This document shows, one piece after another, positions 42,506-63,957 of a DNA stretch of 64,000 nt. Under the pieces are notes generated by a model, which saw nothing but the letters and a program-made list of their open reading frames with translations, was not told the DNA's origin and did not search any database. The position numbers and the translations under genes are program-made. Each line of letters starts with the position of its first letter. Positions within the stretch are counted from its first letter, which is position 1. The stretch is from the NCBI RefSeq assembly GCF_009827295.1, contig NZ_WTYD01000004.1:13779-77778 (forward strand), read 5' to 3'. Source of the stretch: Qipengyuania pelagi. GTDB taxonomy: Bacteria > Pseudomonadota > Alphaproteobacteria > Sphingomonadales > Sphingomonadaceae.

Positions 42506-42545
42506 GATCGGCCTTTCGATCGGAAAGCCTTCGCGGCCTTCTTGC

Positions 42546-42566
42546 AATACTGTAGGGGGGTATATA
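42546..42566. promoter_or_regulatory. CsoR/RcnR-type operator between csoR and copA
   Basis: AATAC-TGTAGGGGGG-TATAT matches the TACT-G-tract-AGTA class of operators recognised by this family: a G6 run flanked by inverted AT-rich half-sites. It lies about 40 bases from csoR and 30 from copA, where it can shut down both. Confidence 0.6.
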
Positions 42567-42595
42567 TGTCGCCTCCCCAAGGAGTTGCAAGCCCG

Positions 42596-45600: not shown

Positions 45601-45806
45601 ACGCGGAGGTCCAGAGCCTTTTAGGTCAGGCCGGTATGTACCCGCCACGATCAGCGGTCATCGGATCGATCAGAATGTGAGGTCGGCAGCCAGCAGATCG
45701 TGGGCGGGAACTGGGCCGACGGCGGCCTGTCCGATTTACGGGCATAACCTGGCAGAGCGGACACTGCCCTTGCAGCGCAGCGCAGCTCTCGTAAGTGGCC
45801 GCTGTA

Positions 45807-46925: not shown

Positions 46926-47542
46926 AGACCATCGTCGTCACCGGGACCGATACCGATATCGGCAAGACAGTATTCGCTGCCGGTCTCGCCAGGGCTTTGG
47001 GAGGATATTATTGGAAGCCGATCCAGGCCGGACTCGATGACGGTAGCGACAGCGCGCGGGTCGCCGATCTCGGGGTTCCGGCTTCCGCGATCATTCCCGA
47101 AGCCTATCGCCTGACAACGCCATGCTCACCCCACCGCGCCGCCGAGCTGGACGATATCGCGATCGATCCGTCCCGCCTCGCATTGCCGAGCCTCGAAGCG
47201 CCATTGGTGGTCGAAGGTGCGGGTGGCGCGCTGGTCCCGGTTACTCGCAATCTGCTCTACGCTGACCTCTTCGCGCAATGGACGGCGCCGGTCGTGATCG
47301 TCGCCCGCACGATGCTCGGAACCATCAACCATTCGCTTTTGACCATCGAGGCGCTTCGCGCGCGGCGCGTTCCGATACTCGGCATCGCGTTCGTCGGCGA
47401 TCCGCAGGAGGAAAGCGAAGCGACCATCTGCACGATCGGCAATGTCGAGCGTCTGGGACGGCTCGCCAGACTGGACCCGCTCAACGCCGATACGCTTTCC
47501 CGCGCCTTCGCGGCTGGATTTTCGGAAGGGACATGGGGATGA
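46922..47542 (+). CDS. bioD: Dethiobiotin synthetase
   Basis: A 206-residue ATP-dependent carboxylase closing the ureido ring. The P-loop [10 protein letters not shown] and the substrate lysine region YWKPIQAG are intact, as is [11 protein letters not shown]. The start is a TTG that overlaps the bioF stop as TTGA; a TTG start here may keep BioD at a lower level than its neighbours. Confidence 0.92.
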
Positions 47543-48795
47543 GCCAGTCCCCGGTATGGCACCCGTTCACCCAACACGGCTTGCGTGAACCGATACCGCA
47601 CATCGCGCGAGCGCAGGGCGCGGTGCTTCACACGGAGGACGGGCGCGAAATTATCGACGCGATCTCTTCCTGGTGGGTGACGACGCATGGTCATGCCCAC
47701 CCGCGGATTGCGGCGGCGATCGCCGAACAGGCCGCAGTCCTCGACCAGATCATCTTTGCAGGGTGGACCCACGCGCCGGCTGAAAAGCTTGCGAAGAGCC
47801 TGCGCGAGATCATGCCTCAAAGCCTGACGCGCGTGTTCTTCTCCGATAGCGGATCGACCAGCGTCGAAGTCGCGCTGAAAATGGCGCTTGGGTACTGGCT
47901 GCATCGAGGCGAGGCACGGCATCGCATTGTCGTGATGGAAAACGGCTATCATGGCGATACGATCGGAACGATGTCGGTCGGGGCGCGCGGAGCATTCAAC
48001 CAGGCATACGAACCGCTGCTGTTCGACGTGACTTCGATACCGTTTCCGACACAGGGTTCCGAACAAATTTCCCTCGACAGGCTTGAAGAAGCATGTCGGG
48101 CCGATGCGGCAGCATTCATTGTGGAACCCCTGATGCTGGGGGCGGGTGGAATGCTCATGTATTCCGCGCAAACTCTTGCGGAGATGCGCCGGATTTGCGC
48201 GCAATTCGGCACTCTCTTCATCGCCGACGAGGTCATGACCGGTTGGGGGCGAACCGGCACATTGCTCGCGTGCGAACAGGCTGGGATCGAGCCTGACATC
48301 CTGTGTTTATCGAAAGGGCTCACAGGCGGAGCCATTCCGCTGGCAGTGACGATGGCAAGCGAACCGGTGTTCGATGCGCATTGGAGCGATGACCGGGCGC
48401 GGATGTTCTTTCATTCGTCGAGCTACACCGCCAATCCCATCGCCTGCGCTGCCGCGAACGCCAATATCGCGATCTGGCGAGACGAGCCGGTGATGGATCG
48501 GATCGACGAATTGGGGAAGCGGCAAGCCGAGCGCCTCGACAGGCTGGCGTCACACGCACTGGTTCACAACCCCCGCCGGATGGGCACCATCACCGCCTTC
48601 GACGTAGGCGAAGCGACTGGCTACCTCTCCGATCTCGCCCCGCGCATGTTGGCATTGTTTCGCGAACGGAACGTTCTGCTCCGCCCGCTTGGCAATACGG
48701 TCTATGTCATGCCGCCATATTGCGTCGATTCAGGCCAATTGGACCAGATCTATGAAGCCATCGAACACGTCTTGAACGAGATTGCTGTTCGCTAG
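47539..48795 (+). CDS. bioA: Adenosylmethionine-8-amino-7-oxononanoate aminotransferase
   Basis: A 418-residue class III aminotransferase using S-adenosylmethionine as amino donor. HPFTQH at the N-terminus and DAISSWWVTTHGHAHPRI are BioA-specific; the PLP lysine is in LSKGLTGG, and DEVMTGWGRTG precedes it. ATGA overlap with bioD. Ends the operon; bioB is not in the window. Confidence 0.93.
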   Translation: MSQSPVWHPFTQHGLREPIPHIARAQGAVLHTEDGREIIDAISSWWVTTHGHAHPRIAAAIAEQAAVLDQIIFAGWTHAPAEKLAKSLREIMPQSLTRVFFSDSGSTSVEVALKMALGYWLHRGEARHRIVVMENGYHGDTIGTMSVGARGAFNQAYEPLLFDVTSIPFPTQGSEQISLDRLEEACRADAAAFIVEPLMLGAGGMLMYSAQTLAEMRRICAQFGTLFIADEVMTGWGRTGTLLACEQAGIEPDILCLSKGLTGGAIPLAVTMASEPVFDAHWSDDRARMFFHSSSYTANPIACAAANANIAIWRDEPVMDRIDELGKRQAERLDRLASHALVHNPRRMGTITAFDVGEATGYLSDLAPRMLALFRERNVLLRPLGNTVYVMPPYCVDSGQLDQIYEAIEHVLNEIAVR

Positions 48796-49083: not shown

Positions 49084-52017
49084 ATGACGCATTTTTCGAA
49101 GCTCGGATGGTTTGCTGCGGCGACAATGGTGGTTCCCATGCCCGTCACGGCGATGGACACCTTGGCAGATGAAAATGACGCCGTCATCGCCGCGCTGGAC
49201 AATGCCATCGATGCCGCGACTGCGCGGGATGTTTTCAATACGCCTGAAACCGAGCTCGCCGTCTGGGAGAGGCTTTATACGAGAGCCAGGGGCGCAGACC
49301 ATCCCGCCGACCTGATGGCGCGCGCGGCCCTCGGATATGGTATCGCGCTCTATTACAGCGAAAGATACGAAGAGGCCGAAGCCAGGGTCGACGAGGCGCG
49401 GACACTGGCGGCAACGCTCGGACAGGCGGCCGATCCCTGGAGGTATCGGCTGCTGAGCTACGCATCGCTCGTCGCCGGGGAGCGCGGCAAGCAGGACCAA
49501 TCGAAAGCCTTCGCCGAGGAAGCGCGCGCTTCGGCCAAAACCCTGTATGGTGAAGACAGTGCGGAAATGGGTCTGGCACTCAACGCCACCGCGCTGACGC
49601 ACTGGATCGCGGGCGACCTTCCCGCGGCGCGCGATGCGATGTGCCACGCCGCCGACCTCGCCGAGGCACACCTCCCTGCATCCGATTACATGGTGTCGAA
49701 CAACATGTTCTCCTGCGCGGTCGCCGAGAGCATGGTCAGCGATGACGACGATAAAGTCATAGAGTATCTCGCGCGGGCATCGGCTTTCGCGCTCGCGAAC
49801 CTTCCGGCGGACCATTCGCGCATGGGCTATATCTTCAACAGCCACACGAACATGATGGGTCGTCTGGGCCGACATGGCGAGGTCGAGGCGCTGTCGCGCA
49901 AGGCAATCAACCTGTATGCCGATGCCGGGCTGGGGGACACGCTGGTGGTCCTCAACGTCCATTCGACGCTGTCGGGCAGCCTGCTGGCACAAGGCAAGCT
50001 CGAACAGGCGCTGGATGTGGCGCTTGCCCTCATCGAGAAAGCCGAGCGGAGATCGGCCCTTTCATCGCCCGGCCTCATCCCGCAAGCGCATGGCAATGCC
50101 GCACAAGCCTATATCGGGATGGGGAAGCTGCGCGAGGCCGCGGACCATCTTCGTGAGGCCATCCGCCTCTATCAGACGGAAAAGTCCGAGATGCTGGGCA
50201 TGGCGACCAGCCAGATGCGCGCCGCGCTCGTGCTTCAGAAGCTCGGAGAGCGGGAGCAGGCGGCGGAATACTTCGCAAGCGCGCTCGAAACGGGCGCGGA
50301 CCCCGGAAAGCTCCCGGATCTGAGGCGTCCATCCTTCGATTTGTTCCGCGCCCAGTATCTCGTGCGCGATGGGCGTCCGCAAGCGGCGTGGGCGGTGGCC
50401 GAGCCGATGGCCAGAGCGCAGGCCGAGCGTTTCCTCAGCCTGTCAGCAAAGCGTAGCGAGCTGGTCGCCCTGCAAGGCACGCTGGCTCCGGCCATGGCGG
50501 AGACCGCCTATATCGCGCTGCTCAACGACAAGCCCGACGAGGCATTTCACTTCGCTCAGCTCGCTTTGCTATCGGAGCTGGCCTTGGCCGATCTGCAGTC
50601 CGGGATGCGCCTGTCGAACGATCGTCCCGAACTGGCCGCGCTGGTCGGCGATTTGCGGCAGGCCGAGCGGAAATCTCTCGGATTCCAGAAACAGCTTCGC
50701 GAAATGGGGGCGCAGGAGCAGCAGGACAGGCTGGCGCAGGAGGAAGAGGCCAATCAGGCGCACATCCAGCAGCTGAAAAGCCGGATCGCGCGCGACTGGC
50801 CGCAATATACTGCTTTGCTGACACCCCGAATCGCAAGTCTGGATGAGGTTACCGCCGCTCTGCGACCGGGCGAAATGATGGCCTTGCCGATCGCGCTCGG
50901 CGACCGCATGGTTTCCGTCCTGATCGATCGCGATGGGCTCGACTGGGCCGAGACGGATATTCCTGCGGCATCGTTGCGCGCAGACGTGCGGTCCTTGCGA
51001 CAGGCCTACGACTTTTCCGCAGCCGATACCGACCTTGCGGACCAATTTCCCATAGAGGCATCGCGGCATCTCCACGATGCCCTGTTCCCACCCGCGCTCG
51101 CACCTAAACATAAGGCTGCGAACCGTGTCTTCATGCCGGCGAGCGGGGCATTCGCGACCATTCCGGTAGCGAGCCTGCTGACGCGAGATTTTGACCGTTC
51201 GCTCGAGCCGCGAGATTGGCCGTGGCTGCTGGCGGACAAGAGCGTTCAGGTGCGCGTGAGCCTGTCTGACAACAAGGAAACACCGCCGGAGAGGCGCGCC
51301 GAAATGCGGTTCTTCGGGATTGGCAATCCCGCGACAGGTGCTGTGAGCGCGCCCGCATTCGCTGATACGGAATCGCGACCGGGCTTGTCCGACCTGTTCC
51401 GCGGGACGCCCGATGCCAGAGCCCTCGCCGACCTACCCGCCCTGCCGGAAACGGGCGAGGAATTGCGCGAGATCGCGCGGGCGCTGGGTGAAGACAGAGG
51501 CATGGTCCTGACCGGCGGTAACGCCACCGAAGCAGCCGTCCGAAAAGCCGACCTCAGCGCATACGATGTCCTCGCCTTCGCGACGCATGGACTGGTCAGC
51601 GGCGAGATCAACGGGCTGATCGAACCAGCGCTGGTTCTGACGCCGATCGAAGGGGATGGGAGCGAGAATGACGGTCTTCTGACAGCGTCGGAGATCGCCG
51701 CGCTTCAGATCGACGCCGATTGGGTGATCTTGTCGGCTTGCAATACCGGCGCAGGCGACAGCGCCTCTTCGCCGTCCTATTCCGGGCTGGCGCGGGCCTT
51801 CCGCCAGGCTGGCGCGCGCTCGCTCCTCCTGTCGCATTGGCGTGTGCGCGACGATGTCGCCTCCCGTCTGACCGTCGCGACCGTTCGGAATGCCGCGCGG
51901 GGAATGGACCGGGCCGAGGCCTTGCGGCAGGCACAGATCGAGCTGATGCGCGATCCCGATCTACCCGAAGCTGCCAATCCGGCGGTCTGGGCACCCTTCG
52001 TCCTGATCGACGACTGA
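49084..52017 (+). CDS. Exported TPR-CHAT domain protein (caspase-like protease)
   Basis: A 977-residue protein. A signal peptide (about residues 1-23, VVPMPVTAMD) is followed by about 480 residues of TPR-type helical repeats, a charged coiled coil near 540-580 (QEQQDRLAQEEEANQAHIQQ) and a C-terminal CHAT domain. The CHAT dyad is His835 in FATHGL and Cys886 in LSACNTGAG, with SHWRVRDD after it, so it should be an active cysteine protease outside the cytoplasm. The start at 49084 has GGGGAGG five bases upstream. It converges on the lipoprotein/kinase operon; partner substrate unknown. Confidence 0.88.
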   Translation: MTHFSKLGWFAAATMVVPMPVTAMDTLADENDAVIAALDNAIDAATARDVFNTPETELAVWERLYTRARGADHPADLMARAALGYGIALYYSERYEEAEARVDEARTLAATLGQAADPWRYRLLSYASLVAGERGKQDQSKAFAEEARASAKTLYGEDSAEMGLALNATALTHWIAGDLPAARDAMCHAADLAEAHLPASDYMVSNNMFSCAVAESMVSDDDDKVIEYLARASAFALANLPADHSRMGYIFNSHTNMMGRLGRHGEVEALSRKAINLYADAGLGDTLVVLNVHSTLSGSLLAQGKLEQALDVALALIEKAERRSALSSPGLIPQAHGNAAQAYIGMGKLREAADHLREAIRLYQTEKSEMLGMATSQMRAALVLQKLGEREQAAEYFASALETGADPGKLPDLRRPSFDLFRAQYLVRDGRPQAAWAVAEPMARAQAERFLSLSAKRSELVALQGTLAPAMAETAYIALLNDKPDEAFHFAQLALLSELALADLQSGMRLSNDRPELAALVGDLRQAERKSLGFQKQLREMGAQEQQDRLAQEEEANQAHIQQLKSRIARDWPQYTALLTPRIASLDEVTAALRPGEMMALPIALGDRMVSVLIDRDGLDWAETDIPAASLRADVRSLRQAYDFSAADTDLADQFPIEASRHLHDALFPPALAPKHKAANRVFMPASGAFATIPVASLLTRDFDRSLEPRDWPWLLADKSVQVRVSLSDNKETPPERRAEMRFFGIGNPATGAVSAPAFADTESRPGLSDLFRGTPDARALADLPALPETGEELREIARALGEDRGMVLTGGNATEAAVRKADLSAYDVLAFATHGLVSGEINGLIEPALVLTPIEGDGSENDGLLTASEIAALQIDADWVILSACNTGAGDSASSPSYSGLARAFRQAGARSLLLSHWRVRDDVASRLTVATVRNAARGMDRAEALRQAQIELMRDPDLPEAANPAVWAPFVLIDD

Positions 52018-52035
52018 CACGCGCCGGACGGCTCG

Positions 52036-52095
52036 CCCAGTAACCTAAAGCCCGGTGACCTAAAGCCCAGTAACCTAAACCCCGGAGACCCAAAC
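52036..52095. repeat. Four 15-bp tandem repeats between convergent genes
   Basis: Units CCCAGTAACCTAAAG, CCCGGTGACCTAAAG, CCCAGTAACCTAAAC and CCCGGAGACCCAAAC run head to tail from 18 bases after the CHAT stop to one base before the lipoprotein stop. Alternating A/G at the fourth base suggests a 30-bp higher-order unit. No terminator hairpin is present. Confidence 0.7.
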
Positions 52096-52096
52096 C

Positions 52097-52684
52097 CTAG
52101 TCGACGACGAGGTAGACCCTTGCCGCCTCCGCCGAACGATTGGCGAGGCGAATGGTGTAGCGCGCCGAATAGGCGGGCAGCCAGCGGCACGTCGCGCTCG
52201 GCGCAATCTGCGTTTGGCAGACCGTATTGCCTTTCTTGTCCAGGATCAGGAAGCTGACCGGCGTTCCGCCTCGGGCCGCAGCAGCGACTTCCGCCGCTTC
52301 CCCGGCGAGGAAGAGCTGTTCCAGCTCGACCGCACGCAGACCTTCGACCACGGCCCGACGATATCCCCGGCCCAGGGCGCGACCGCGCAAGGGCGGCGAG
52401 GCGAAAGAGGATTGCGCGCGCCATTCGGCAAGCGGATCGTCCTTTGTGCCATCGATCGCCTTGACACCACTTCGGTCAAGGGCAGCCACGATGCGGTCGC
52501 GGTGCTCCCCCTGCCCGGCGGCATCGGCCTTGACCAGCATACCGGCGATCCGCTCGGCGTCGCTCGCATTCGCTGAAGGGGCGACAGGAGCTGCCGCAAC
52601 GGAAGCCCGCTCCGGCGCGCAGCCGGAGGCGAGGGCGACGGCACAGGCGAGGATGGGAAAGGGAAACCGGTCAGGAACAATCAT
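52097..52684 (-). CDS. Lipoprotein with PPC-like C-terminal domain
   Basis: A 195-residue exported protein. The lipobox is ASGC (Cys22). A helical region of about 100 residues is followed by a compact beta domain (GTPVSFLILDKKGNTVCQTQ, then ATCRWLPAYSARYTIRLAN) whose D..GN.VC...C.W.P...Y.I.L.N pattern resembles PPC-type beta sandwiches found in CHAT-associated proteins. Start overlaps the kinase stop (ATGA), so it is made with the two-component system. Confidence 0.65.
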   Translation of the reverse strand: MIVPDRFPFPILACAVALASGCAPERASVAAAPVAPSANASDAERIAGMLVKADAAGQGEHRDRIVAALDRSGVKAIDGTKDDPLAEWRAQSSFASPPLRGRALGRGYRRAVVEGLRAVELEQLFLAGEAAEVAAAARGGTPVSFLILDKKGNTVCQTQIAPSATCRWLPAYSARYTIRLANRSAEAARVYLVVD

Positions 52685-54036
52685 ACTTGCCTCCGCTCGT
52701 CCATCGCAACTTCGAAACGAGCCCCCCGGTCCGCGTCGATCAGGCGCAGCTGCCAGCCATGCCGTTCCGCAATGGCACGCGCCAGTGCCAGGCCGAGGCC
52801 CGCTCCGTTCTCGCCGTGCTCGTGCGCGGAGCTGCGATAGAAGCGCTCGAAAATCCGCTCGCGATCCGGCTCTGGAACGCCGGGGCCGTCATCCCGGACG
52901 ACCAGCCGTGGCCCCGGTTCGAGAACGAGCTCGATCGTGCCGCCCGCGGGGACATATTTGAATGCGTTGTCCAGCAGATTGGTGATCAGCCGTGCCAGAT
53001 GTTCCGCTTCGCCATCAACGGTCACGCCCGGTGCGATGTCCCAGTCGAAACGATGCCCCGATTCCTCTGCGCTATCGCAGTAAAGCTCGCAGATACTCTC
53101 GCAAAGCGCGCTCAGATCGACCGGTTTCAGACCGAGCTGATCGCCCTGCCGGGCTTGGCTCGCAGCAATATCGAGCAGGCTTTCGAGCGTGGCGATCAGC
53201 GACCTGATATCCTCGCGCGCCGCCACCAGATGCCGGGCCGTGGCCGGGTCGGGATCGGAACCGAGTGCCTTGACCAGCTTGCCATCGAGATGCGTCAGGG
53301 GCGTGCGGACTTCGTGGGCGATCTGGTCGGAGGCGTTGCGATAGGACACCATCAGGCGCTTCACCCGGTCGAGCACAGCGGCAGAATGCGCAGCCAGCTC
53401 GTCGATTTCATCGAACCTGCGATTATGCATCAGCGGAACGAGCGCACTCGTGTCGGTGGATTCGAAAGCGGCGTTGATGCCAGCGATACGGCGCTGCAGA
53501 CGCCTCGTGGCAAAGCGCGCCGCCAGGCCGACCAGCAAGACGAGCAGCAGGCCGCCGCCCAGAAACGCGAACCCCACCCGGCGTAATAGCGGGCCGGTAT
53601 CCTCGATCTCGTGCGCGACCAGCAAACGCAGATCGGGCCCCAATTGCGTGGCTCGCGCCAGCGCTTGTGTCGTCCTGCCGAGTGTTATGGTGCCGCTCTC
53701 GGAGATCGCCGGATCGAGATCGGGCCAGGCGCGGATATCTCCGGCCAGGCGGGCCCCGTTTTTTCCTGTCAGAAGATAGTGCGGCCGTGCGCCGTCCACG
53801 GGGACCAGCGCCAGCCTGTCCGCAATCCGACTGGTCAGCTCGCCGACCCCTCCGCTGGAATGGATATCCACGAGGCCCGCCAGATCGACATCCACCGCAT
53901 TGCGCCCGGTCTCCTCCAGCGTCGCGCGGATGGTCTGGTCGGTGATGAACCAGAGCCCCGCGACAAGCACGACCGCGACCGCAAGCGCGGTGGCGACAAG
54001 CCGGGAAAAGATGGACGTGCGGTCCTGCAAGATCAC
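52681..54036 (-). CDS. Two-component sensor histidine kinase
   Basis: A 451-residue inner-membrane kinase: helices at about 13-33 and 155-173 enclose a periplasmic sensor of about 120 residues, then HAMP, HisKA with phosphoacceptor His241 in AHEVRTPL, and a HATPase domain (NLLDNAFKYVPAGG, DDGPGVPEPDRERIFERFYR, GAGLGLALARAI). The sensed signal is unknown. Overlaps the response regulator upstream and the lipoprotein downstream by four bases. Confidence 0.92.
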   Translation of the reverse strand: MILQDRTSIFSRLVATALAVAVVLVAGLWFITDQTIRATLEETGRNAVDVDLAGLVDIHSSGGVGELTSRIADRLALVPVDGARPHYLLTGKNGARLAGDIRAWPDLDPAISESGTITLGRTTQALARATQLGPDLRLLVAHEIEDTGPLLRRVGFAFLGGGLLLVLLVGLAARFATRRLQRRIAGINAAFESTDTSALVPLMHNRRFDEIDELAAHSAAVLDRVKRLMVSYRNASDQIAHEVRTPLTHLDGKLVKALGSDPDPATARHLVAAREDIRSLIATLESLLDIAASQARQGDQLGLKPVDLSALCESICELYCDSAEESGHRFDWDIAPGVTVDGEAEHLARLITNLLDNAFKYVPAGGTIELVLEPGPRLVVRDDGPGVPEPDRERIFERFYRSSAHEHGENGAGLGLALARAIAERHGWQLRLIDADRGARFEVAMDERRQV

Positions 54037-54722
54037 CTGCCGTCCAGCAGGCGATAGCCCGATCCCCAGATCGTCTCCAGCGCGGGCGTGTCGAAGCCGT
54101 CTTCGAGCTTGCGCCGCAGACGCCCGATATTGACGTCGACCACGTTCGTCTGCGGATCGAAGGACATGTTCCAGACATCCTTCAAGAGCATCTCGCGCGT
54201 CACCGTCTCGCCGGCGTTTTCGATGAAGTACCGGAACAGTTCGAATTCACGCGGGCTCAGCGCCAGGTGCCGGTCCTGGCGGAAGGCGGTGCGGGCTTTC
54301 ACATGGCATTCGAACGCGCCGTAAAGGATGACCGCGCTGTGTTCGCGGCCCGATGCGCGGCGGTGCAGAGCCTGGACGCGTGCCTGCAATTCGCAGGCTT
54401 CATACGGCTTGGCGAGATAATCGTCGGCGCCCGCCTCAAGCCCTTCGGTGCGGTCGGTCGTCCGGCCCAGCGCCGAAAGCATGAGCACCGGTGTGCCGAC
54501 GCCGCTTTCGCGCAGGCGATGGACGATGGTGAGGCCATCGATATCGCCCAGCATCCGGTCGAGGATGATGATGTCGAAATCTTCCATCCCCGCGCGTAGC
54601 AGTCCGCCGGAACCGGTGGCCTCCCACGTCACACGATCGCCGTTTGCGGAGAAAAGCTCCTGTATTTCGGCGGCCGCGCGTCGGTCGTCTTCGACATACA
54701 GGATCGATAGCGCCCCACTCAT
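54033..54722 (-). CDS. OmpR/PhoB-family response regulator
   Basis: A 229-residue DNA-binding regulator: receiver domain with phosphorylatable Asp55 in IIILDRMLGD and the Lys in YLAKPYE, then a winged helix (ALSPREFELFRYFIENAGE, DVWNMSFDPQTNVVDVNIGR LRRKL region). Partner of the adjacent kinase. Its likely targets are the CTGTCAGA motif sites upstream of the CsgG/SH3 gene and the Slam operon. Confidence 0.92.
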   Translation of the reverse strand: MSGALSILYVEDDRRAAAEIQELFSANGDRVTWEATGSGGLLRAGMEDFDIIILDRMLGDIDGLTIVHRLRESGVGTPVLMLSALGRTTDRTEGLEAGADDYLAKPYEACELQARVQALHRRASGREHSAVILYGAFECHVKARTAFRQDRHLALSPREFELFRYFIENAGETVTREMLLKDVWNMSFDPQTNVVDVNIGRLRRKLEDGFDTPALETIWGSGYRLLDGR

Positions 54723-54826
54723 GCCGAGTAGCCTCCCCTATTGCCCGCCGTCCGCGACGCATGGGAATGTGCCATCGTCGCAGAACGGGGGCAAGCATAC
54801 GGCATGGATCGGATCGGTACCGAGGG

Positions 54827-55705
54827 TCAGCCGAGATCCTCGACCGAAACCCAGCCTGTCGTGCCGTAATCGTCCGCGACCTCGATGAAGAGCCCTTCGC
54901 GCTGTCCGGTCGGAGTCAGGCGGGTGCCGCTGCGCAGCGCCCGAATCTGGTCCGCCCCGGCGGACGGGCCGGCGCGCAGGACGGTATCGACGGCGACGCT
55001 GGCCGCAGCGTTTGCTGGCGCACTCGCCGATTGGGCAGCAGGACGTACGGAAGCCGCGATGGCCGCCTTCTGGCCGACCACTTCGTTGAAGGCCAGGATG
55101 ACCGCTTCGGCCATCATCTTTCCGTTCTTGCTGTTGCCATAACCCGCCGCATTGACTCCGGCCGACCAGGCTGTGGCGCCGCCGAAACTCAGCGAACTCT
55201 TCTTGACCGTGCCCGAACCGACCGCAACGGCCTGTCCGGTGGCCGGGCTGAGCAGTTTGATACCCGCCGCCACGCGCTTCTTCTTGCCGCCGAGGCCACC
55301 GAAAGCACCCAGCAGGGCACCTGCGAACGGCACTTTGCTCGCAACGCTGGTCAGCGCGCCGGAACGAAGCAGGCCTTCGGTCACGGCCGTCTTCGCGATC
55401 GAGATCGACTGGTCGACCTCTTCCGACGATCCGCCGATGACGTTCATGAGGAAATCGGCAGGGACGCCGCTGGCATTGCTGTGCGGGGTAAAGCAGCCCG
55501 ATTCGATCGCCAGCGAATTGACCAGTTCGCGCGGGCTGCCGAGGCCGAATTCGGTCCAGCCCTGCGTGTCGCCATCGACGACCGCGATCGTGCCCAGGCT
55601 GGTCTCGCAACGCGCCAGTTCGACATCACCCTTCTTCGCCATTGCGGGCGAAGCGGCGGGAATGAGCAGGGCGGCGGTTGCGAGCAGTGTGACGGCTTTC
55701 TTCAT
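54827..55705 (-). CDS. Exported CsgG-like/SH3 domain protein
   Basis: A 292-residue protein with a signal peptide (residues 1-23, ending SPAMAK). Residues about 30-205 resemble the CsgG/HfaB fold (LVNSLAIESGCFTP, DFLMNVIGG, GIKLLSPATGQAVAVGSGTVKK, KMMAEAVILAFNEVV), and residues about 232-292 form a bacterial SH3 domain (TVLRAGPSAGADQIRALRSG, GWVSVEDLG). No lipobox, unlike CsgG itself. Role probably in assembling or anchoring surface material at murein. A conserved motif lies 70 bases ahead. Confidence 0.75.
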   Translation of the reverse strand: MKKAVTLLATAALLIPAASPAMAKKGDVELARCETSLGTIAVVDGDTQGWTEFGLGSPRELVNSLAIESGCFTPHSNASGVPADFLMNVIGGSSEEVDQSISIAKTAVTEGLLRSGALTSVASKVPFAGALLGAFGGLGGKKKRVAAGIKLLSPATGQAVAVGSGTVKKSSLSFGGATAWSAGVNAAGYGNSKNGKMMAEAVILAFNEVVGQKAAIAASVRPAAQSASAPANAAASVAVDTVLRAGPSAGADQIRALRSGTRLTPTGQREGLFIEVADDYGTTGWVSVEDLG

Positions 55706-55773
55706 GGCAATTCCCCTCTGTGTGACGATGGCTCCTTATCGCGCGGGCTCGCCGGGCGGCCCACACACCTTGC

Positions 55774-55795
55774 CTGTCAGAAAGATGACAATGTC
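55774..55795 (-). promoter_or_regulatory. Candidate response-regulator site upstream of CsgG/SH3 gene
   Basis: CTGTCAGA-AAG-ATGAC-AATGTC on the plus strand, 69 bases before the start at 55705. Thirteen core bases and spacing match the site before the Slam gene; TGTCA-N6-TGACA symmetry and a further CCGTCAGA copy at 55796-55803 fit an OmpR/PhoB-type binding array. Confidence 0.45.
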
Positions 55796-55816
55796 CGTCA
55801 GATTTGGGGGAGCAGG

Positions 55817-58800
55817 TCAGCGTCGCTCGGTGGACCCGAAGGTGATCCAGGCGCCCAGCGGGTTTGCCGGGATATTTGCGGCAGCGGCCGATCCCGGATC
55901 AAGGGCGACCCTCGCTGGGATCCGCGAGGAGCGATCCTGACCCGCTGAAGACGTCCAGCGCGCCCAGTCGGTCGCGATTTCGGCGGTCGGCGGCGGAGGC
56001 AGTGCGAAATCGCTGCCCTGCGCGGGCGCTGTCATGCCAGCGATCGGGGCCGTGATATTCGCGATCGCAAGCGTCTTCTGCGCGGCGGTGACCGCTCCAA
56101 AGTTAGCGGCGCGAAACGCTGCCGTCCCTTGGATCGTGTTGCTGGAAGCGGTTCTGATTCCATAGGTCAGACCGACATGGCTCCCTCCGCTTCCAGCCAG
56201 GAAGCCCGAGACATAGGCTCCGCGCGAAACGGTCCTGCCACCGCTGTCGACAGCGGTGAGACTGCCGGTGAAGATATTCCCGCGACCAGCACTTGGATCG
56301 GTCGTGATAGCGAGCGATGGCGCGGCGATCCCGCCCGCGCTGGACAATTGATAGCTCTCCGTGACCACATCGACGGTCGCTTCCAGGCCCAGCTTGAGCG
56401 TGGTGAAATCGATCGCCAGCCGCCCGTCGAAGCTCGAACCGGTCAGGTCGCTGGCATTCGTGGCCGTGGGCGTCGTCCAGCCTACGAGGTCGTAATTGAT
56501 CAGGCCGCTTGTCGGCAGGTTCACGCTCGGCGCGCCCCAAATGGAGTGGGCGTAGCGGCTGGCAAAGGGTGTCAGGACGAAGGACTGGCGATTGCCATTC
56601 GTGACCGAGCCGCCGAAATTGCTGATACGCGACCAGCCTAGAACACCATCGCTTCCGCCGCGCTGATATTGTGACGATGCGGTCGGCTGGATGTCTATCT
56701 TTTCCAGATTGAGGTCCGCCTGCAAAAGCACGCCGTCGGTGGTTTTGATCGGGGTCGCGACACCCACTGCCGCAGCTGCGTTCGCAGTCACGAAAGCGAC
56801 CTGATCGCCAGCACTGCCCACGCGAGCATTGCCGTCACCGGCGAGGAAGACGGGATTTTGCTTTCCGCCCCCGCCGCTATCGCCACCATTGGTCGCACCG
56901 GTTGCTGACTTCTGGCTCGGATCGCCCAGTCCCGCGAGCGCGGTTCCTGATCTGCCGAACACCGCCACGCCCTGCAACGCATTGTTCTGGTTGCGATCGA
57001 AGACGTTATACGTGAAGCCCGCATGGCTCGCACCCTTGCCGAAGAGGCCGCCGAAGACCTGTCCGATGCAATAGCCCGTGCAGCCAGTGCCCGCGATGAC
57101 CGTCAGCCCAAGCGATTGATTTTCGAACACGCCGTCCGCGCTGACCCCGAGCCCGCCCGAAGCCGCGCCCTTCGCGCCGCCCGCGGTCTGGACGCGGTAG
57201 CCGGTCCCTTCGGAATAGAGGTCGAAGTTGAATCCCACTCTGGGCGCCGCGCTGCCGAACGCGACCGCCAGATCGCCGGTGAACCAGCCGGTCGATCCGG
57301 GTGCCCCATTGCGGTTGGTCGGGGCCGTGCCGCCGACCAGGGCATATTCGATCAGCCCGGTGGCCGGGAGTTCGAAGGCGGGAGTGCCGACCAGCAAGTG
57401 CTCGGACACGTTCTGCTGCCGATTGGCGCTGCCGACATAATAGCGCGTCCAGGCCACGGCATCGCCGAACCGCCCGAATTCGCGAAGGTCCGCCGTGCGA
57501 TTGGAATAATCGGTCGTCACACCCGATGGGTTATAGACCGTCATTTCCGTGATCCGGCCATCTGCAGCCACCTTGGCATCGACGCGCGCGACACGCAGCC
57601 CGTCACTGGCGAATTGCCAACCGCGCACGCTGCCGAGCTGTGGCGAAGGGTCTCCGGTTCCGCCGCCTCCGCCTCCGCCGGTTCCGCGCCCCGGAAGGCC
57701 CGCAAACCGATCCGGGTCGCCGCCATCGCCGAGATAGGCGAAATACTGGACGAAGAAATCGTTCAGCGCTGCGAAATTCGCAAAACCGCCCCCGGACGTG
57801 TTCGCCAATGCGGCGAGATAGGCCTGGATCTGCGCCTGCGTGAGCGCGGTGTATGCGCTGGGCGTCCCGCCATCGGCGATGAAGGCGTAATAGGCGTTCA
57901 GCGCGGCGACGTATTGCGAATAGATCGGCAGTCCCGCGAAGCGCACCGGATCGTTGCCTGCCGCGACGAAAGCGAAATACGCGGTGAAGAAGCTATCCAG
58001 CGATCCGAATGATGCCAAACCGCCCGCATCGTTCAGCGCGGCAAGATAGGCGCGGATCGTCGCCTGATCGAGCGCGGTATAGGCGGACGGCAGCCCGCCG
58101 CCTTGCAGATAGGCGGAATACGCATTCAGTGCGCTGACGTAAGTGGCATAGACCGGCAGGCCGCTGAACCCGTCCGGCGTGCCACCCGTGGCAAGATAGG
58201 TGAAATAGCCCGTCAGCAGATCGGCATTGGCGCCGAGCAGGTCTGCGAGCTGGCCCGAGGCGACGATGGCTTCGAGATAGGTCTGCAAGAGGTCGGAATC
58301 GACCGCGTCGTAATCGCTCGGCAGGCCGCCTCCCGCAAGGAAGGCCGCGTAGGCGTTGAGGGCCGATGCAAAGGCCGGGAAGTCGGGCGGAACGGGAAGA
58401 CCGGCGAAATTGTCTGGATTCCCGCCCGCGCTGACGAAAGCGAAATAATCGCTGTAGAAGGCCGCCAGATCGGCCAGGAAACCTTCGGTTGCGCCAACTC
58501 TCGCCAGCGCGGCCAGATAGGCCCGGATCGTGTCCTGGTCGAGCGCGGTGTAGGCGCTGGGGATGCCGCCGTTTTCGAGATAGGCGTAATAGCTCGCCAG
58601 TGCTTCGGCATAACCGCCGAAGATGTTGGCATTCAGCCCTGCATATGTGTCGATCGCACCACCGCCCTGAAGGAAGGCGAGATAATCGGCGAAAAACGCG
58701 CTGCGTTCGCCCAGGAAACGGTCGAGCGCACCTGCCGCCGCGAGCTGGGCGAGATAGGAATTGAGCACTTCGGTATCGGCGGCGGAATAACCGCTCGGTA

Positions 58801-60388
58801 CGCCACCCGCATCGAGGAAGGCGAAATAGGCATTCAGCGCCTCTGCATAGCCTGCAAAGATATTGGCATTGAGCTGACCGAAGGCGTCGATCTGGCCCCC
58901 GCCCTGAACGAACGCCGCATAATCCGCGAAGAACTGCGCATTTTCGCCCAGAATGGTGCCAAGCAGGCCGGCCGATTGCAATGTCTGGACGTAACCCAGC
59001 AGCACGCCGATATCCGCCCCATCATAGGCGCTCGGCCGCTGCCCGCTGGCGAGGAAGGCGAAATAGGCGTCGAGCGCGGCGCGATAGTCGCCGAAAAAAC
59101 CGAAGCCGCCATTCGCCAGATAGGCATCGAGCAGAGCGCGGTCGGTAGCGCTCAATTGCCGCTCGAGGCCCGACGCATCGAGAAAAGCGATATAGCTTTC
59201 GACCGTGGCGAGACTGGCAGCAGTGAAATCCTGCGGCCTGCCGCCTGTGCGTAGAAATGCGAAATAGGCTTCGGTCAGATTGGTGAAACTGGCCGCGAAA
59301 AGATCGGCGTTCCCCCCATTCGCGATGAAAGTGAGATAGGCATCGGCAAGCGCCCGATCCTGGTTCGAAAATTCCGCGAAGCCGCGCGTGCGCGCGAGAT
59401 ATGCCGTGAAGGCGTTGATATCCGCGACATTCGCCCGCGCGAACCCTCCGGGCCTGCCGCCGATGCGGATCAGATCGAAATACTGCGCCAGAAAGCCGCT
59501 ATAGGCGGTCAGGAAATCTGCACCGGAACCGCCGCCCGCAAGGAAGCCGAGATAGGTGCGGATAATGTCCGCTTGCGCCGCGGGAAATGGCGTACCGCCG
59601 AACGCACCTTCGATATTCGCGGCGGCGGCCACCAGCGAACGCAGGTCTCCGCCGGGAAAGGTTTCGATCGCCGGATTGGCCACTGCCGCCTCTACCCGGC
59701 GGGCGGCGCCAAGAATATCGCCCGACGCACCGGCCGCGGCAAGCGCGTCTCCAAGGGAGACCGGCAAGCCGTTCTGCGCTGCCGCGACCGGGCCGGCACC
59801 CCCACCCATCGCCACGACCGGATCGTGTGCGATCGCACTGCCTTCAGCAGCGGCGATCGCGTCGGGCGTGGATTGGGCGCCGTTCGATACGACCTGGCGG
59901 ACGGGAGCTCCGCGCGTGGTCGCAAACATGTCTCCGCCATCGAACCTGCGCAGATCGCCAGCGCGCCCGACCCGCAGGCTGCCGCTCAGCGCGTGGCCGC
60001 GCGCCTCGCCATCGGGCCCCACACTGAAGTTCGCCGCCGAACCGATCCCCGCCACCCGGCCTTCCACGCCTTCCGGCATTCTGACCAGCGCTTCCGATCC
60101 ATCCGGGCCGGTCGTGACGGTCACGCCGCCGGCGTAAAGGTCGATGCTGCCATCGGCGTTGACGCGGAAATCCGCGGCGTCGATGAAACTGGCGATTCCG
60201 CCATTGTCGAGGCGGACCTGCGTGACGCCCTCCTGCTGGTTGATCCGCGCGCCTTCGCGCACCTCAATCCTGCTCGAACTGAAGAGCGTATCGGTCGCCG
60301 ATACCGGACTGGCGATGGCGATGCCGGATACGCCGATCATCAACGTGGCGACGGTCTTGGCGGCGACGGTCTGGGTGGTGCGGATCAT
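55817..60388 (-). CDS. Giant exported repeat protein with FecR-like head and TbpB-like barrels, probable type XI cargo
   Basis: A 1523-residue protein I can describe but not name. A signal peptide (to about residue 31, no lipobox) leads to a FecR-like beta domain (about 32-170: TLFSSSRIEVREGARINQQE, SIDLYAGGVTVTTGPDG). Residues about 270-896 hold some eight helical repeats of 75-85 residues built on YFAFLxxGGxPxxY and YLAAL motifs. After a Gly-rich linker come two TbpB-like lipocalin/barrel domains (about 916-1175 and 1235-1430), sharing the pattern ELPATGLIEYALVGGTAPT and NLPTSGLINYDLVGWTTPT. It starts 23 bases after the Slam stop. Slam-type barrels export proteins with TbpB-like domains, so surface display or release is inferred. 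Confidence 0.75.
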   Translation of the reverse strand: MIRTTQTVAAKTVATLMIGVSGIAIASPVSATDTLFSSSRIEVREGARINQQEGVTQVRLDNGGIASFIDAADFRVNADGSIDLYAGGVTVTTGPDGSEALVRMPEGVEGRVAGIGSAANFSVGPDGEARGHALSGSLRVGRAGDLRRFDGGDMFATTRGAPVRQVVSNGAQSTPDAIAAAEGSAIAHDPVVAMGGGAGPVAAAQNGLPVSLGDALAAAGASGDILGAARRVEAAVANPAIETFPGGDLRSLVAAAANIEGAFGGTPFPAAQADIIRTYLGFLAGGGSGADFLTAYSGFLAQYFDLIRIGGRPGGFARANVADINAFTAYLARTRGFAEFSNQDRALADAYLTFIANGGNADLFAASFTNLTEAYFAFLRTGGRPQDFTAASLATVESYIAFLDASGLERQLSATDRALLDAYLANGGFGFFGDYRAALDAYFAFLASGQRPSAYDGADIGVLLGYVQTLQSAGLLGTILGENAQFFADYAAFVQGGGQIDAFGQLNANIFAGYAEALNAYFAFLDAGGVPSGYSAADTEVLNSYLAQLAAAGALDRFLGERSAFFADYLAFLQGGGAIDTYAGLNANIFGGYAEALASYYAYLENGGIPSAYTALDQDTIRAYLAALARVGATEGFLADLAAFYSDYFAFVSAGGNPDNFAGLPVPPDFPAFASALNAYAAFLAGGGLPSDYDAVDSDLLQTYLEAIVASGQLADLLGANADLLTGYFTYLATGGTPDGFSGLPVYATYVSALNAYSAYLQGGGLPSAYTALDQATIRAYLAALNDAGGLASFGSLDSFFTAYFAFVAAGNDPVRFAGLPIYSQYVAALNAYYAFIADGGTPSAYTALTQAQIQAYLAALANTSGGGFANFAALNDFFVQYFAYLGDGGDPDRFAGLPGRGTGGGGGGGTGDPSPQLGSVRGWQFASDGLRVARVDAKVAADGRITEMTVYNPSGVTTDYSNRTADLREFGRFGDAVAWTRYYVGSANRQQNVSEHLLVGTPAFELPATGLIEYALVGGTAPTNRNGAPGSTGWFTGDLAVAFGSAAPRVGFNFDLYSEGTGYRVQTAGGAKGAASGGLGVSADGVFENQSLGLTVIAGTGCTGYCIGQVFGGLFGKGASHAGFTYNVFDRNQNNALQGVAVFGRSGTALAGLGDPSQKSATGATNGGDSGGGGKQNPVFLAGDGNARVGSAGDQVAFVTANAAAAVGVATPIKTTDGVLLQADLNLEKIDIQPTASSQYQRGGSDGVLGWSRISNFGGSVTNGNRQSFVLTPFASRYAHSIWGAPSVNLPTSGLINYDLVGWTTPTATNASDLTGSSFDGRLAIDFTTLKLGLEATVDVVTESYQLSSAGGIAAPSLAITTDPSAGRGNIFTGSLTAVDSGGRTVSRGAYVSGFLAGSGGSHVGLTYGIRTASSNTIQGTAAFRAANFGAVTAAQKTLAIANITAPIAGMTAPAQGSDFALPPPPTAEIATDWARWTSSAGQDRSSRIPARVALDPGSAAAANIPANPLGAWITFGSTERR
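57700..59580 (-). repeat. Coding repeat array in the giant exported protein
   Basis: About eight imperfect units of 75-85 codons. Each has two sub-motifs: one like ALNAYFAFLDAGGVPSGY and one like FFADYLAFLQGGGAID or YFAFVSAGGNPDNFAGLP, separated by YLAALA-type helices. Units toward the C-terminal end of the protein (57.7-58.7 kb) are the most alike, suggesting recent duplication there. Confidence 0.75.
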
Positions 60389-60411
60389 GGCTTTCTCCCG
60401 TGCGGAACTGA

Positions 60412-61701
60412 TCAGAACTCGAAGCGAAGGCCGGCCGAAATCGTCCAGCGTTCGTAATCGTAGAGAGCTATGTTGCTGAAATTGCGCGTGTAGCTGGCTT
60501 GCGGCGTGACGAAGATCGCCTCGGTCAGCGCAAACTTGATTCCCCCAGTCAGATCGATGCGCTCGTCATTCCGCTTGGCCAGGAACAGCGGATCGGCAGC
60601 GTCGTAGCGTCTGAGGTCGAAAGCCGCCCCGGCGAGCACGGCAACCTTGTCAGCGACCGGGAACTCGCCGCCGACATTCGCGCCGAGGAACCAGTTGGAC
60701 TGGGCATCGCCCGCTTGCCTGCGCGTTTCCTCCTTGCCGCCGGTCAGCGCTGCGGAAACCATGCGCGTCACATAACCGAGGCTCGCGGCAAAGCGGTCGG
60801 AATCGCGCAGCGGATCAGTGTCGAAATCCAGCCGGTTCCATTGGGCGGACAGAGTCAGCGCCTCCCCATCGGCAAGGGCGTGGGTGTATTGGCCGATCAG
60901 GCCGTAACTGGCGCGGAACCCGTCGCGCCCCAACCAGAAACGCTGGACCTGACCAGATAGCGAGACGACATCGCGATTGGCGAAGCTGTGCGCATATCCG
61001 GCAGTGCCGGTGATCGCCGCCTGATCGAAGGTGCGACTGTCGAAATTGTCGCGCCAGCTGGCGAGTGCGCTGGCGAACACCCGATCCTGCCTGCCGATCG
61101 CAGCGACGCCGGAAATTCCGCTCTGTATCTCGTAGAATTCGTCGCCCTGCGCGCGCGCTCCGGCACCGAGCGTGCCCGGCCCGAGGAAGCTGAACAGAGG
61201 AATGGTGATCGTGGTCAGATCGGTAGCGGCGTTGATGTTGTCGTCATAGCCGATGCGCGCATCGACAAAGCCGGACACGTCCGATCCGCCGCCCTGGATT
61301 TGACGGTCGAACTGGCGGACGAAGCCCGTAAACCGGTTGCGCACCGGATCGGGCAGTGAGGGATCGTCCACGACCGTCGCGAATTCCGCGCGCGCCGTGT
61401 CGATATCGCCGGCCAGGGCATAGGCCCTCGCAAGTTCCGCCCGCGCCGCCGCATTGTTCGGCTGCATGGCGAGGACGCGCTGCAAGGCGATGATTGCCTC
61501 GCCATACCGCCCTGCATCGATCGCGGCTGTCGCTAGTTCGTAATCGAAAGCCGGATCGCCGGGGCGGTCTTCGACCTGCGCCGCGAGCGAAGCGTAGCGG
61601 CCAGCATTTGCGGTATCGTCCTGCGCGAAAGCTGGCGCCGACGCGATGAAAGTTACTGCCGCGCCGATCGCAAGATAGGCCGTCATTTTGGAGAATGTCA
61701 T
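60412..61701 (-). CDS. Slam-like outer-membrane translocon (type XI secretion)
   Basis: A 429-residue outer-membrane protein. Signal peptide (ending APAFAQ), an N-terminal TPR domain (about 30-125: RPGDPAFDYELATAAIDAGRYGEAI, MQPNNAAARAELARAYALAG) and a C-terminal barrel of about 280 residues ending ISAGLRFEF with the terminal Phe needed for BAM insertion. This two-part layout is that of surface lipoprotein assembly modulators, which move TbpB-type proteins to the cell surface. It heads the operon with the giant exported protein. GGGGG precedes the start. Confidence 0.8.
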   Translation of the reverse strand: MTFSKMTAYLAIGAAVTFIASAPAFAQDDTANAGRYASLAAQVEDRPGDPAFDYELATAAIDAGRYGEAIIALQRVLAMQPNNAAARAELARAYALAGDIDTARAEFATVVDDPSLPDPVRNRFTGFVRQFDRQIQGGGSDVSGFVDARIGYDDNINAATDLTTITIPLFSFLGPGTLGAGARAQGDEFYEIQSGISGVAAIGRQDRVFASALASWRDNFDSRTFDQAAITGTAGYAHSFANRDVVSLSGQVQRFWLGRDGFRASYGLIGQYTHALADGEALTLSAQWNRLDFDTDPLRDSDRFAASLGYVTRMVSAALTGGKEETRRQAGDAQSNWFLGANVGGEFPVADKVAVLAGAAFDLRRYDAADPLFLAKRNDERIDLTGGIKFALTEAIFVTPQASYTRNFSNIALYDYERWTISAGLRFEF

Positions 61702-62480: not shown

Positions 62481-62885
62481 ATGCCGACCACCATTCTGAT
62501 TGTTGAAGATGAAGTCCTTATAGCTGTCGAAATGGAGGCGGTGATTCACGATCTCGGTCATGAATCCGCAGGGATTGCCGATGACATGCAATCAGCATTG
62601 GCGAAGGCTTCGGACGCCATCGATGTGGCTCTCGTCGACGTCAACTTGGCTGACGGAGCCACGGGCCCCAGAGTGGGCGAAAGACTTGCCTCGGATTTCG
62701 GGATCGAGGTCATCTTCGTGACGGCCAATCCCGCGCAGCTCGGCGAAGGGGTAAGCGGAACGCTGGGTGCGCTTGAAAAACCGGTCGATCTCGGCATTCT
62801 CAAGCAGGTTCTCGACTATGTCATTGCGATCCGGAAGGGCGAAAATATCGATCCGCCTGCCCGCTTGAAGCTGTTTTTCAACTAG
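62481..62885 (+). CDS. Stand-alone response regulator receiver
   Basis: A 134-residue single-domain receiver without output domain: acidic pocket in VEDE, phosphoacceptor Asp53 in ALVDVNLADG, Thr in VTANPAQ and Lys in LEKPVD. Such receivers act as phosphate sinks or pass phosphate to partners, commonly with HWE kinases in general stress signalling. The ATG at 62481 is preferred over the TTG at 62472. Its end overlaps the convergent kinase gene by eight bases. Confidence 0.88.
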   Translation: MPTTILIVEDEVLIAVEMEAVIHDLGHESAGIADDMQSALAKASDAIDVALVDVNLADGATGPRVGERLASDFGIEVIFVTANPAQLGEGVSGTLGALEKPVDLGILKQVLDYVIAIRKGENIDPPARLKLFFN

Positions 62886-63957
62886 GCTCCTGTAACCTGC
62901 TCTTTCGGACATCCATGACGAGCTCAACGCCATCGTCATGCCAGATTCTTTTGTAATCGCCTCCTAGCTGCTGCTTCGCGGCCAACTCGATGAGGCGACT
63001 TCCGAAACCAGTTTGAGGCTCACGCGCCTTGTCGATGTGCGCTCCGTGTTCCCTCCAGCGGAAGCGGACCATCTCGTCCTCGGTTGACAGATCCAGCGAA
63101 ATCCTCCCGTTGGGATTGGACAGAGCTCCGTACTTCATAGCGTTGGTGGCCAGCTCGTGGAACACCAATGCGACCGGCGTGGCGGCGCGGCTTTCGACCG
63201 CCATATCGGAGCCGGAAATCGCAATCCTTCCTTCGGAAAAGGCAGGATAGGTCTCGAAGATCGTCGCAAGCAGCGTGGCGAGGGTCACTTCTTTGCCCTC
63301 GGGCTGGGACTTTTCACTGTGCGGCCGGACGAATTCGTGCGCGCGCCCCAGCGCGGAAATCCGGCCTAGCAAGTCGCGCGACGCTTCGCCGAACGCTTCA
63401 TTTGCGCGCGCAGTCAGGCTGATCAAACCGGAAACAATCGCGAAGATGTTCTTGATGCGATGGCTGAGCTCCTGGCTCAGGATTTCGTTTTGGAGGGCGG
63501 TGCGCTTCTGCTCGTCGATATCCGTGCAAGTGCCGATCCAGCGCTGGATATCACCCTGCTCGTTGAGGATCGGCAGCGCACGACCGATCATCCAGCGATA
63601 ATCACCGCTGTGATGCCGCAGGCGATATTCAACCTCGTACGGTTCGCCGGTAGCGAGGCTGTGATTCCATTTCTTCCATGAGTCGGCCTGGTCATCCTCA
63701 TGGAACATCCCGGCCCATCCTTCGCCGTCGGTTGATCCGACAGGGACACCCGTGAATTCATACCAGCGCGCATTGTAATAATCGTGGGAGCCGTCGGGAA
63801 GAGTCGACCATACCATCTGCGGCATGGTGTCGGCGAGCGCATGGAAAGCGGCTCCGGCGGATTGCAGCGCATGCTCTTTAGCCAGGGGCAAGACATCCGG
63901 CGCCGAAGAGGATTCGCGGCTGCCAAGCTGGAAATTCGTGATGACTTTTGCATTCAT
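62878..63957 (-). CDS. PAS-HWE family sensor histidine kinase
   Basis: A 359-residue soluble kinase: PAS domain (about 36-150: ADTMPQMVWSTLPDGSHDYY, ending GTCTDIDEQKR) and HWE-type kinase core with His166 in LSHRIKNIFAIVSGL, VFHELATNAMKYGALS and FRWREHG. No membrane segment. In alphaproteobacteria such kinases often feed the PhyR-NepR-EcfG pathway; the PAS may bind a flavin or haem but lacks an obvious LOV cysteine motif. GGGAAGG lies upstream of the start. Confidence 0.9.
   Translation of the reverse strand: MNAKVITNFQLGSRESSSAPDVLPLAKEHALQSAGAAFHALADTMPQMVWSTLPDGSHDYYNARWYEFTGVPVGSTDGEGWAGMFHEDDQADSWKKWNHSLATGEPYEVEYRLRHHSGDYRWMIGRALPILNEQGDIQRWIGTCTDIDEQKRTALQNEILSQELSHRIKNIFAIVSGLISLTARANEAFGEASRDLLGRISALGRAHEFVRPHSEKSQPEGKEVTLATLLATIFETYPAFSEGRIAISGSDMAVESRAATPVALVFHELATNAMKYGALSNPNGRISLDLSTEDEMVRFRWREHGAHIDKAREPQTGFGSRLIELAAKQQLGGDYKRIWHDDGVELVMDVRKSRLQEPS

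Follow-up and report, generated by a model that had tools for sequence, protein, structure and literature searches.

A predicted type XI-like export pair and a separable kinase, lipoprotein and CHAT protease unit in a seven-gene envelope locus of Qipengyuania pelagi

Within a 64,000-nucleotide stretch of the Qipengyuania pelagi genome (assembly GCF_009827295.1, contig NZ_WTYD01000004.1, forward-strand positions 13,779–77,778; this whole stretch is hereafter referred to as the window), seven neighbouring genes at window positions 49084..61701 encode a set of putative envelope proteins. We interpret this locus as two separable modules, i.e., an export pair resembling a type XI secretion system, coupled to a transplantable envelope sensor/CHAT protease unit, and we assign this reading a probability of about 0.55. 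Module A comprises the genes of a Slam-like outer-membrane protein (60412-61701) and of a giant exported protein, its predicted cargo (55817-60388). Module B (49084-54722) comprises the genes of a CHAT protease candidate, a lipoprotein, a sensor kinase and a response regulator, and is accompanied by the gene of a CsgG-fold/SH3 protein. The reading is carried by the adjacency of exporter and cargo genes in all testable relatives, the TbpB-type fold predicted for the cargo C-terminus, the recurrence of the same genes in other genomes, and the occurrence of the modules apart.

Organization of the locus

All seven open reading frames (ORFs) of an initial annotation, prepared from the DNA letters alone, were confirmed in position, and the features recognized within them are as follows (E, e-value; AF2, AlphaFold2; pLDDT, predicted local distance difference test).

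49084..52017, plus strand: exported TPR-CHAT protease candidate (PF12770 E 1.4e-49, TPR_12 E 5.8e-11)
52097..52684, minus strand: lipoprotein of the kinase/CHAT unit (family A5), with a lipobox ending at Cys22 and no known domain
52681..54036, minus strand: sensor histidine kinase, HisKA/HATPase (PF02518 E 1.1e-22)
54033..54722, minus strand: OmpR-type response regulator (PF00072 E 9.9e-21, PF00486 E 6.2e-25)
54827..55705, minus strand: exported protein P0005, with a CsgG-fold domain (residues ~27-221) and a bacterial SH3 domain (residues ~231-292), by predicted fold
55817..60388, minus strand: 1523-aa exported giant protein P0006, predicted type XI cargo
59939..60292, minus strand: FecR-like N-terminal domain of the giant protein, residues ~33-150 (from alignment A4 of homologues)
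57674..59626, minus strand: degenerate repeats of the giant protein, residues ~255-905, followed by a Gly-rich linker (best self-match lag 79 residues)
56951..57628, minus strand: first predicted TbpB-like handle-barrel lobe, residues ~921-1146 (AF2 model, Foldseek)
56099..56809, minus strand: second predicted TbpB-like handle-barrel lobe, residues ~1194-1430
55820..56098, minus strand: C-terminal tail of the giant protein with DWARW and LGAWITF motifs (pLDDT mostly <50)
60412..61701, minus strand: Slam-like outer-membrane protein P0007 with a signal peptide, periplasmic TPRs (residues ~47-112) and a C-terminal barrel (TPR_19 E 3.1e-9, OMP_b-brl E 6.8e-8)

On the minus strand, the genes follow in the order TPR/barrel protein P0007, giant protein P0006, P0005, response regulator, kinase and lipoprotein, and the plus-strand CHAT gene is convergent to them. 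The giant-protein gene starts 23 bases beyond the barrel gene, and the regulator, kinase and lipoprotein genes overlap by 4 bases at each junction. The CHAT, TPR, kinase, regulator and SH3 assignments were backed by Pfam, and the matches to PF02518, PF00072 and PF00486 bear out the two-component control seen initially. No Pfam family scored above its cut-off in the lipoprotein and the giant protein, and NCBIfam gave no useful name for the proteins. At the thresholds used (CHAT E ≤ 1e-5), CHAT and barrel are each present in one copy in the window's genome. The promoter scan yielded 3 promoter-like sites (2.3 expected), terminators were under expectation, no family was matched in the Rfam scan, and the tRNA scan found none. 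Between the convergent CHAT and lipoprotein genes (52035-52101), a 15-base unit is tandemly repeated in about three copies.

The exporter and its giant cargo

P0007 is built of N-terminal periplasmic TPRs and a C-terminal outer-membrane barrel, with TPR_19, TPR_16 and OMP_b-brl above the Pfam cut-offs and TPR_Slam at 17.5 bits, below its cut-off of 35.2. The Slam barrel, which has 14 strands, translocates cargo proteins. As judged from its relatives, P0007 is probably a divergent Slam protein working like Slam (we do not file it as a proven member), because 8 of the 15 members of its family (A1) reach the Slam family PF04575 at E ≤ 0.1 (best 3.1e-9) and hhalign aligned the barrel family with a PF04575 protein of a relative (88.6%, E 2.7e-6, 356 columns). 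P0152, which is 72% identical to P0007, scored 29.3 bits with PF04575 and P0218 scored 25.6 bits (cut-off 22); a further barrel relative, P0142, gave no match. Solved structures matching the barrel part by sequence were not found, the matches of P0007 and A1 being TPR proteins. One relative (G087, locus L146) encodes a second, more typical PF04575 Slam protein (E 4.6e-23) on another contig.

The giant protein P0006 carries a signal peptide without a lipobox and belongs to a family of non-lipidated proteins of 1.5-2.2 thousand residues, for which a search scoring 7989 candidates found 178 homologues at E ≤ 0.001. In the AF2 model of residues 905-1523 (mean pLDDT 76.7), two lobes of the TbpB handle-barrel type are predicted at its C-terminus, the handle-barrel being the fold of type XI (Slam) cargo. 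In the Foldseek search, the modelled part matched intact TbpB (3hol, E 2.4e-12) over both lobes, and 48 of the 49 matches at E ≤ 0.001 were TbpB, fHbp or haemophilin/HphA. This predicted fold strengthens the earlier proposal that the giant protein is a Slam-type cargo. By sequence, the TbpB-barrel Pfam families were matched by none of 38 cargo members, and no solved structure related to the cargo was found. PF04773 (FecR) was touched weakly by 3 of 20 cargo homologues (best E 7.6e-4) and not by the window's own protein; the repeats of P0006 are rich in alanine, glycine and tyrosine. In the tails that follow the second lobe, a W.RW motif is frequent, and some homologues have no tail. A double-glycine-like motif near the C-terminus (like LMGGLITF) occurs in 16 of 44 cargos, the window's cargo included. 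It was not upheld as a cleavage site, because it does not track a linked CHAT, being absent in cargos with a linked CHAT such as those of L048 and L031.

Conservation of the locus among relatives

The search with the barrel alignment A1 resulted in 48 loci, all from labelled Sphingomonadales taxa or unclassified Alphaproteobacteria; as these loci were drawn by two peptide patterns, more distant barrels were missed. A cargo relative is encoded directly downstream of the barrel in 45 loci, i.e., in 45 of the 45 testable ones, since the other three contigs break off 444, 145 and 262 bases past the barrel. The coupling of the Slam-like barrel to the exported 1523-residue protein, claimed initially for the window, is thus well founded at the level of gene order. 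Family profiles detected the response regulator in 36 of the 48 loci, the kinase in 35, the lipoprotein in 34 and the CsgG/SH3 protein in 26, and in 19 of the 48 genomes no more than 12 kb separate the barrel from a CHAT gene (0.88 expected by chance, given 120 CHATs); the envelope set of seven genes is therefore real and recurring. The commonest order is barrel, cargo, CsgG/SH3, regulator, kinase, lipoprotein and CHAT. In the Alteraurantiacibacter/Aurantiacibacter group (L009, L011, L021, L028, L029, L041, L043 and L045 among others), the kinase unit is inverted and the CsgG gene is missing, and in L039 and L040 a more distant kinase pair lies upstream and CHAT follows the cargo. Beyond the seven families, no further neighbour was conserved in more than 8 of the 48 barrel loci (by a crude gene pick on length and GC3).

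CHAT was found (E ≤ 1e-5) in 46 of the 48 barrel genomes. Two of them seem linked across contig ends, in L099 by a contig starting with lipoprotein and CHAT, and in L100 by CHAT adjoining a cargo piece. With these two included, CHAT is farther off or on another contig in 27 of the 46 CHAT-bearing genomes.

In a sample of 197 genomes of the order (thresholds: barrel E ≤ 1e-60, CsgG/SH3 E ≤ 1e-30), the barrel was present in 9, CsgG/SH3 in 22 (12 of them strong), CHAT in 70 and the lipoprotein in 18. The lipoprotein gene occurred in 6 of the 9 barrel genomes and in 12 of the 188 others (p 1.8e-5), and a strong CsgG in 5 of 9 and 7 of 188, respectively (p 3.8e-5), though 2 of those 5 are not beside the barrel. 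Among 289 class-level genomes, only one other from beyond the order had the barrel, with a cargo-like match adjoining. Absences are soft, because the genome searches for the barrel (order and class), CsgG/SH3 and lipoprotein scored only part of the first-look candidates.

The block is accessory, as it is absent beside bioA, its left neighbour, in 4 of 4 fetched congeners (every block gene was missing over ~13 kb; 9 congeners had a bioA match), and the barrel was found in none of the 18 congeners in the order sample. On the left (42329-48795), inspection by eye indicated what we take to be a multicopper oxidase and CopB-like pair (copA/copB), followed by bioF, a bioD-like gene and bioA. Towards the window's right edge (62483-63957), the G+C content falls to 0.56, and a HWE-type PAS kinase has a short receiver-like ORF as its neighbour.

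Proteins accompanying the export pair

The window CHAT domain scored 169.6 bits with PF12770 (cut-off 24), and all 85 aligned CHATs have H and C in the His and Cys columns (in the window, His codon 51586-51588 and Cys codon 51739-51741), in agreement with the initial assignment of a CHAT enzyme. The ORF is open from TTG 49027 and the N-terminus is signal-like, and we regard the protein, from its sequence, as a candidate exported TPR-CHAT protease with an intact dyad.

Cys22 of the lipoprotein is kept in at least 90% of 34 homologues, and two C-terminal cysteines are invariant. Its initial description as PPC-like found no support, the PPC profile matching neither the window lipoprotein P0002 (E ≤ 1) nor the 34 homologues (E ≤ 0.5). 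PF20271 (CATRA-associated) was touched by 10 of the 34, with the best E only 0.015, which is within the chance range. In P0005, SH3 alone exceeded the Pfam cut-off; the CsgG profile did not match it, nor was a CsgG family among the matches of 29 homologues, and no solved relatives were found by sequence. Of its earlier label of CsgG-like/SH3 protein, the SH3 part holds by Pfam and the CsgG part may hold as a predicted CsgG-type fold; we do not file the protein in the CsgG family.

A quick tree of 85 CHATs split into clades of 27 and 58. No member of the smaller clade is accompanied by parts of this locus, and for 21 of them the neighbours include a giant protein, a ShlB-type exporter or a CHASE2 protein. 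In the larger clade, parts of this locus accompany 24 CHATs, one of which also has a ShlB-type match. The label on the tree denotes a cargo, barrel or lipoprotein within one fetched stretch, and thus takes in L125 (lipoprotein and regulator only) and the contig pieces of L099 and L100. The locus-linked CHATs were rejected as one orthologous line: they are scattered over the 58, with 9 label changes, of which at least 8 are forced by supported branches (shuffled mean 19.7). Several branches are long, that of the window CHAT (best identity 36%) among them.

The separate lineage lies beside exoproteins of 1800-2300 aa, ShlB-type exporters and/or a CHASE2-cyclase (L056, L058, L059, L061, L062, L064, L065, L067, L070, L071, L073, L081, L084, L086, L117, L119, L121 and L122). 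Pfam confirmed ShlB and CHASE2-cyclase on the examples tested, and the giant exoproteins tested had no Pfam match. In eight genomes (L052, L054, L069, L075, L077, L080, L082 and L087), a CHAT of the locus clade is placed between the genes of the large and small subunits of ribonucleotide reductase (clusters c14 and c8, with the Pfam check in L052). In L155 and L156, 3-4 ORFs that match CHAT form arrays, together with weak relatives of the lipoprotein and a more distant pair of kinase and regulator.

Occurrence of the modules apart

Module B without module A was found in six genomes examined (L130-L132, L148-L150). CsgG, regulator, kinase, lipoprotein and CHAT stand together in L130 and L131, and likewise in L132, in which the regulator was not called apart. 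L148, from a congener of the window's strain, has regulator, kinase, lipoprotein and CHAT, L149 has kinase, lipoprotein and CHAT, and L150 has regulator, kinase and CHAT, with a lipoprotein added by the separate lipoprotein search. The fetched stretches of L151-L154 contain kinase and lipoprotein but no CHAT; one lies ~25-35 kb away in three of these genomes, and CHAT is on other contigs in the fourth. CsgG/SH3 stands alone in L133-L136 and L142, and barrel and cargo occur without other parts in L138 and L140 of the order sample. In L068 and L115, the barrel locus has no CsgG/SH3 and CHAT, and elsewhere in these genomes a CsgG/SH3 gene lies ~0.9-1.1 kb from CHAT.

The initial annotation had tentatively joined all the genes into a single regulated system. 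One indivisible seven-gene system is rejected, because modules A and B, CsgG and CHAT are each found alone. CHAT is bound to the kinase and lipoprotein at least as tightly as to the cargo.

Proposed function and alternative explanations

In the proposed mechanism, the giant protein would leave through Sec, the Slam-like TPR/barrel protein would recognise its C-terminal TbpB-like lobes, and the cargo would cross the outer membrane and, without being lipidated, be displayed at the surface or released, its N-terminal domain and repeats perhaps carrying out the work outside the cell. The lipoprotein, in the outer or inner membrane, and the kinase would sense a periplasmic state to which the regulator answers, and the exported TPR-CHAT cysteine protease would act in the periplasm or at the surface. 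The gene set and its order, the pairing, the CHAT dyad and the separability of the modules rest on sequence, and the cargo lobes and the CsgG fold on predicted structure, whereas the direction of export, the signal sensed by module B and any cleavage are presumed here. We propose that module B was recruited beside module A because it monitors or processes what passes through the export pair. A functional link between A and B is supported by the co-occurrence statistics, which are silent on which protein CHAT cuts.

Several observations weigh against this two-module reading. P0007 itself gave no PF04575 match at E ≤ 1, and none was found in the whole window genome at E ≤ 0.001. The cargo model covers residues 905-1523, with the repeat region and the full-length cargo outside it. 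The window CHAT is on the opposite strand, and therefore does not share a transcript with the other genes. Barrel and cargo stand with nothing of module B in four of the 48 loci (L007, L015, L033 and L046, with at least 9.7 kb on each side). CHAT presence is weakly enriched (7 of 9 barrel genomes, 63 of 188 others, p 0.011), and the chance and linkage figures ignore relatedness.

It is doubtful that the genes form a single system in which the giant cargo is matured or released through cleavage by CHAT, this cleavage being pure conjecture. The recurrent neighbourhood, the exported CHAT with its intact dyad, the placement of CHAT directly after the cargo (0-81 bases) in L034, L039 and L040, and the exposed tail with a double-glycine-like motif in some cargos would all agree with it. 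However, most relatives have no CHAT at the locus, CHAT accompanies kinase and lipoprotein in the absence of a cargo, the locus-linked CHATs are scattered over the CHAT tree, the tail motif does not follow CHAT, and no cleavage site was identified. We consider it unlikely that the locus is a hot spot of variable DNA in which a pair of unrelated accessory modules adjoin without interacting: the block is accessory, and A and B are separable, but the same genes recur in one order across genera whose flanking DNA differs, and the CHAT linkage (19 of 48) and the lipoprotein enrichment exceed what chance would give.

Still more improbable, in our view, is that module B acts as a conflict or cell-fate unit (a periplasmic caspase-like killer or a phage/predator alarm), with the giant protein as the guarded antigen or receptor. 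Craspase and cell-death systems are known to employ CHAT proteases, and the CHAT arrays of L155 and L156 and the PF20271 signal in the lipoproteins might point in this direction; yet all parts look extracytoplasmic, that signal is at chance level, and no island of defence genes was seen, no defence-library scan having been made.

The sister CHAT lineage beside two-partner-secretion giants suggests, by analogy, the same logic with another exporter. We therefore put forward, tentatively, the possibility that exported TPR-CHATs serve generally to control giant surface proteins leaving by one-protein outer-membrane exporters, the protease processing or clearing a stalled or anchored exoprotein and the sensor adjusting the supply. 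One lineage would have joined a kinase/lipoprotein unit and, repeatedly and independently, a type XI-like pair, and its sister a CHASE2-cyclase and two-partner-secretion giants. We found no paper on an envelope function of exported CHAT proteases, nor any joining CHAT with FecR and Slam, two-partner secretion, or haemagglutinin and FecR, in a literature search outside which subscription journals lay; CHAT together with Sphingomonas brought up only an unrelated cyanobacterial genome.

Host-associated bacteria and cargo of small to medium size account for most of what is known experimentally about type XI secretion. If the two-module reading is true, the range of the Slam route would be widened, in free-living alphaproteobacteria, to non-lipidated cargo of 1.5-2.2 thousand residues bearing two TbpB-type lobes, and the recurrent, movable kinase-lipoprotein-CHAT unit would offer a directly testable role for exported CHAT proteases.

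Comparison with known systems

As in type XI systems (Slam/DUF560, PF04575), a TPR outer-membrane protein with a C-terminal barrel is encoded in the window next to an exported protein with predicted TbpB-type lobes at its end. The window differs from them in its divergent barrel, missed by PF04575, and in the kinase/CHAT/CsgG unit alongside, and its cargo is unlike known type XI cargo in its length of 1523 aa, lack of lipidation, FecR-like front, long repeats and lack of a Pfam TbpB-barrel match. In published surveys, Slam subcluster 1C is described as largely environmental Sphingomonadaceae (Grossman 2021, PMC8406197), and the "Sphingomonas surface protein" as a T11SS cargo of sphingomonads that bears two to three pairs of handle and barrel and N-terminal proline-threonine repeats (Grossman 2025, PMC12282271). 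The window cargo resembles the latter in its sphingomonad origin and predicted handle-barrel pairs, but it has a FecR-like domain and alanine/glycine/tyrosine-rich repeats and shows no proline-threonine repeats. The main text of PMC12282271 makes no mention of FecR or CHAT, and the build of the window cargo (a weakly FecR-like front, repeats and two lobes) fits none of the ten types of cargo that this 2025 survey names.

The window CHAT shares with other TPR-CHAT proteases, such as Csx29 of Craspase, a TPR array followed by a CHAT domain with the His/Cys dyad; unlike these, it is predicted to be exported, has no CRISPR context, and sits with a kinase, a lipoprotein and an exporter. P0005 differs from the CsgG curli exporter and from ring lipoproteins such as PelC, as it has no sequence match to them and carries SH3, and no curli genes were identified. 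A further parallel is given by the two-partner-secretion loci with a CHAT gene, in which 21 of 27 CHATs of the sister lineage have giant exoproteins, a ShlB-type exporter or a CHASE2-cyclase as neighbours, whereas the window has another exporter, another sensor and a CHAT from a separate clade.

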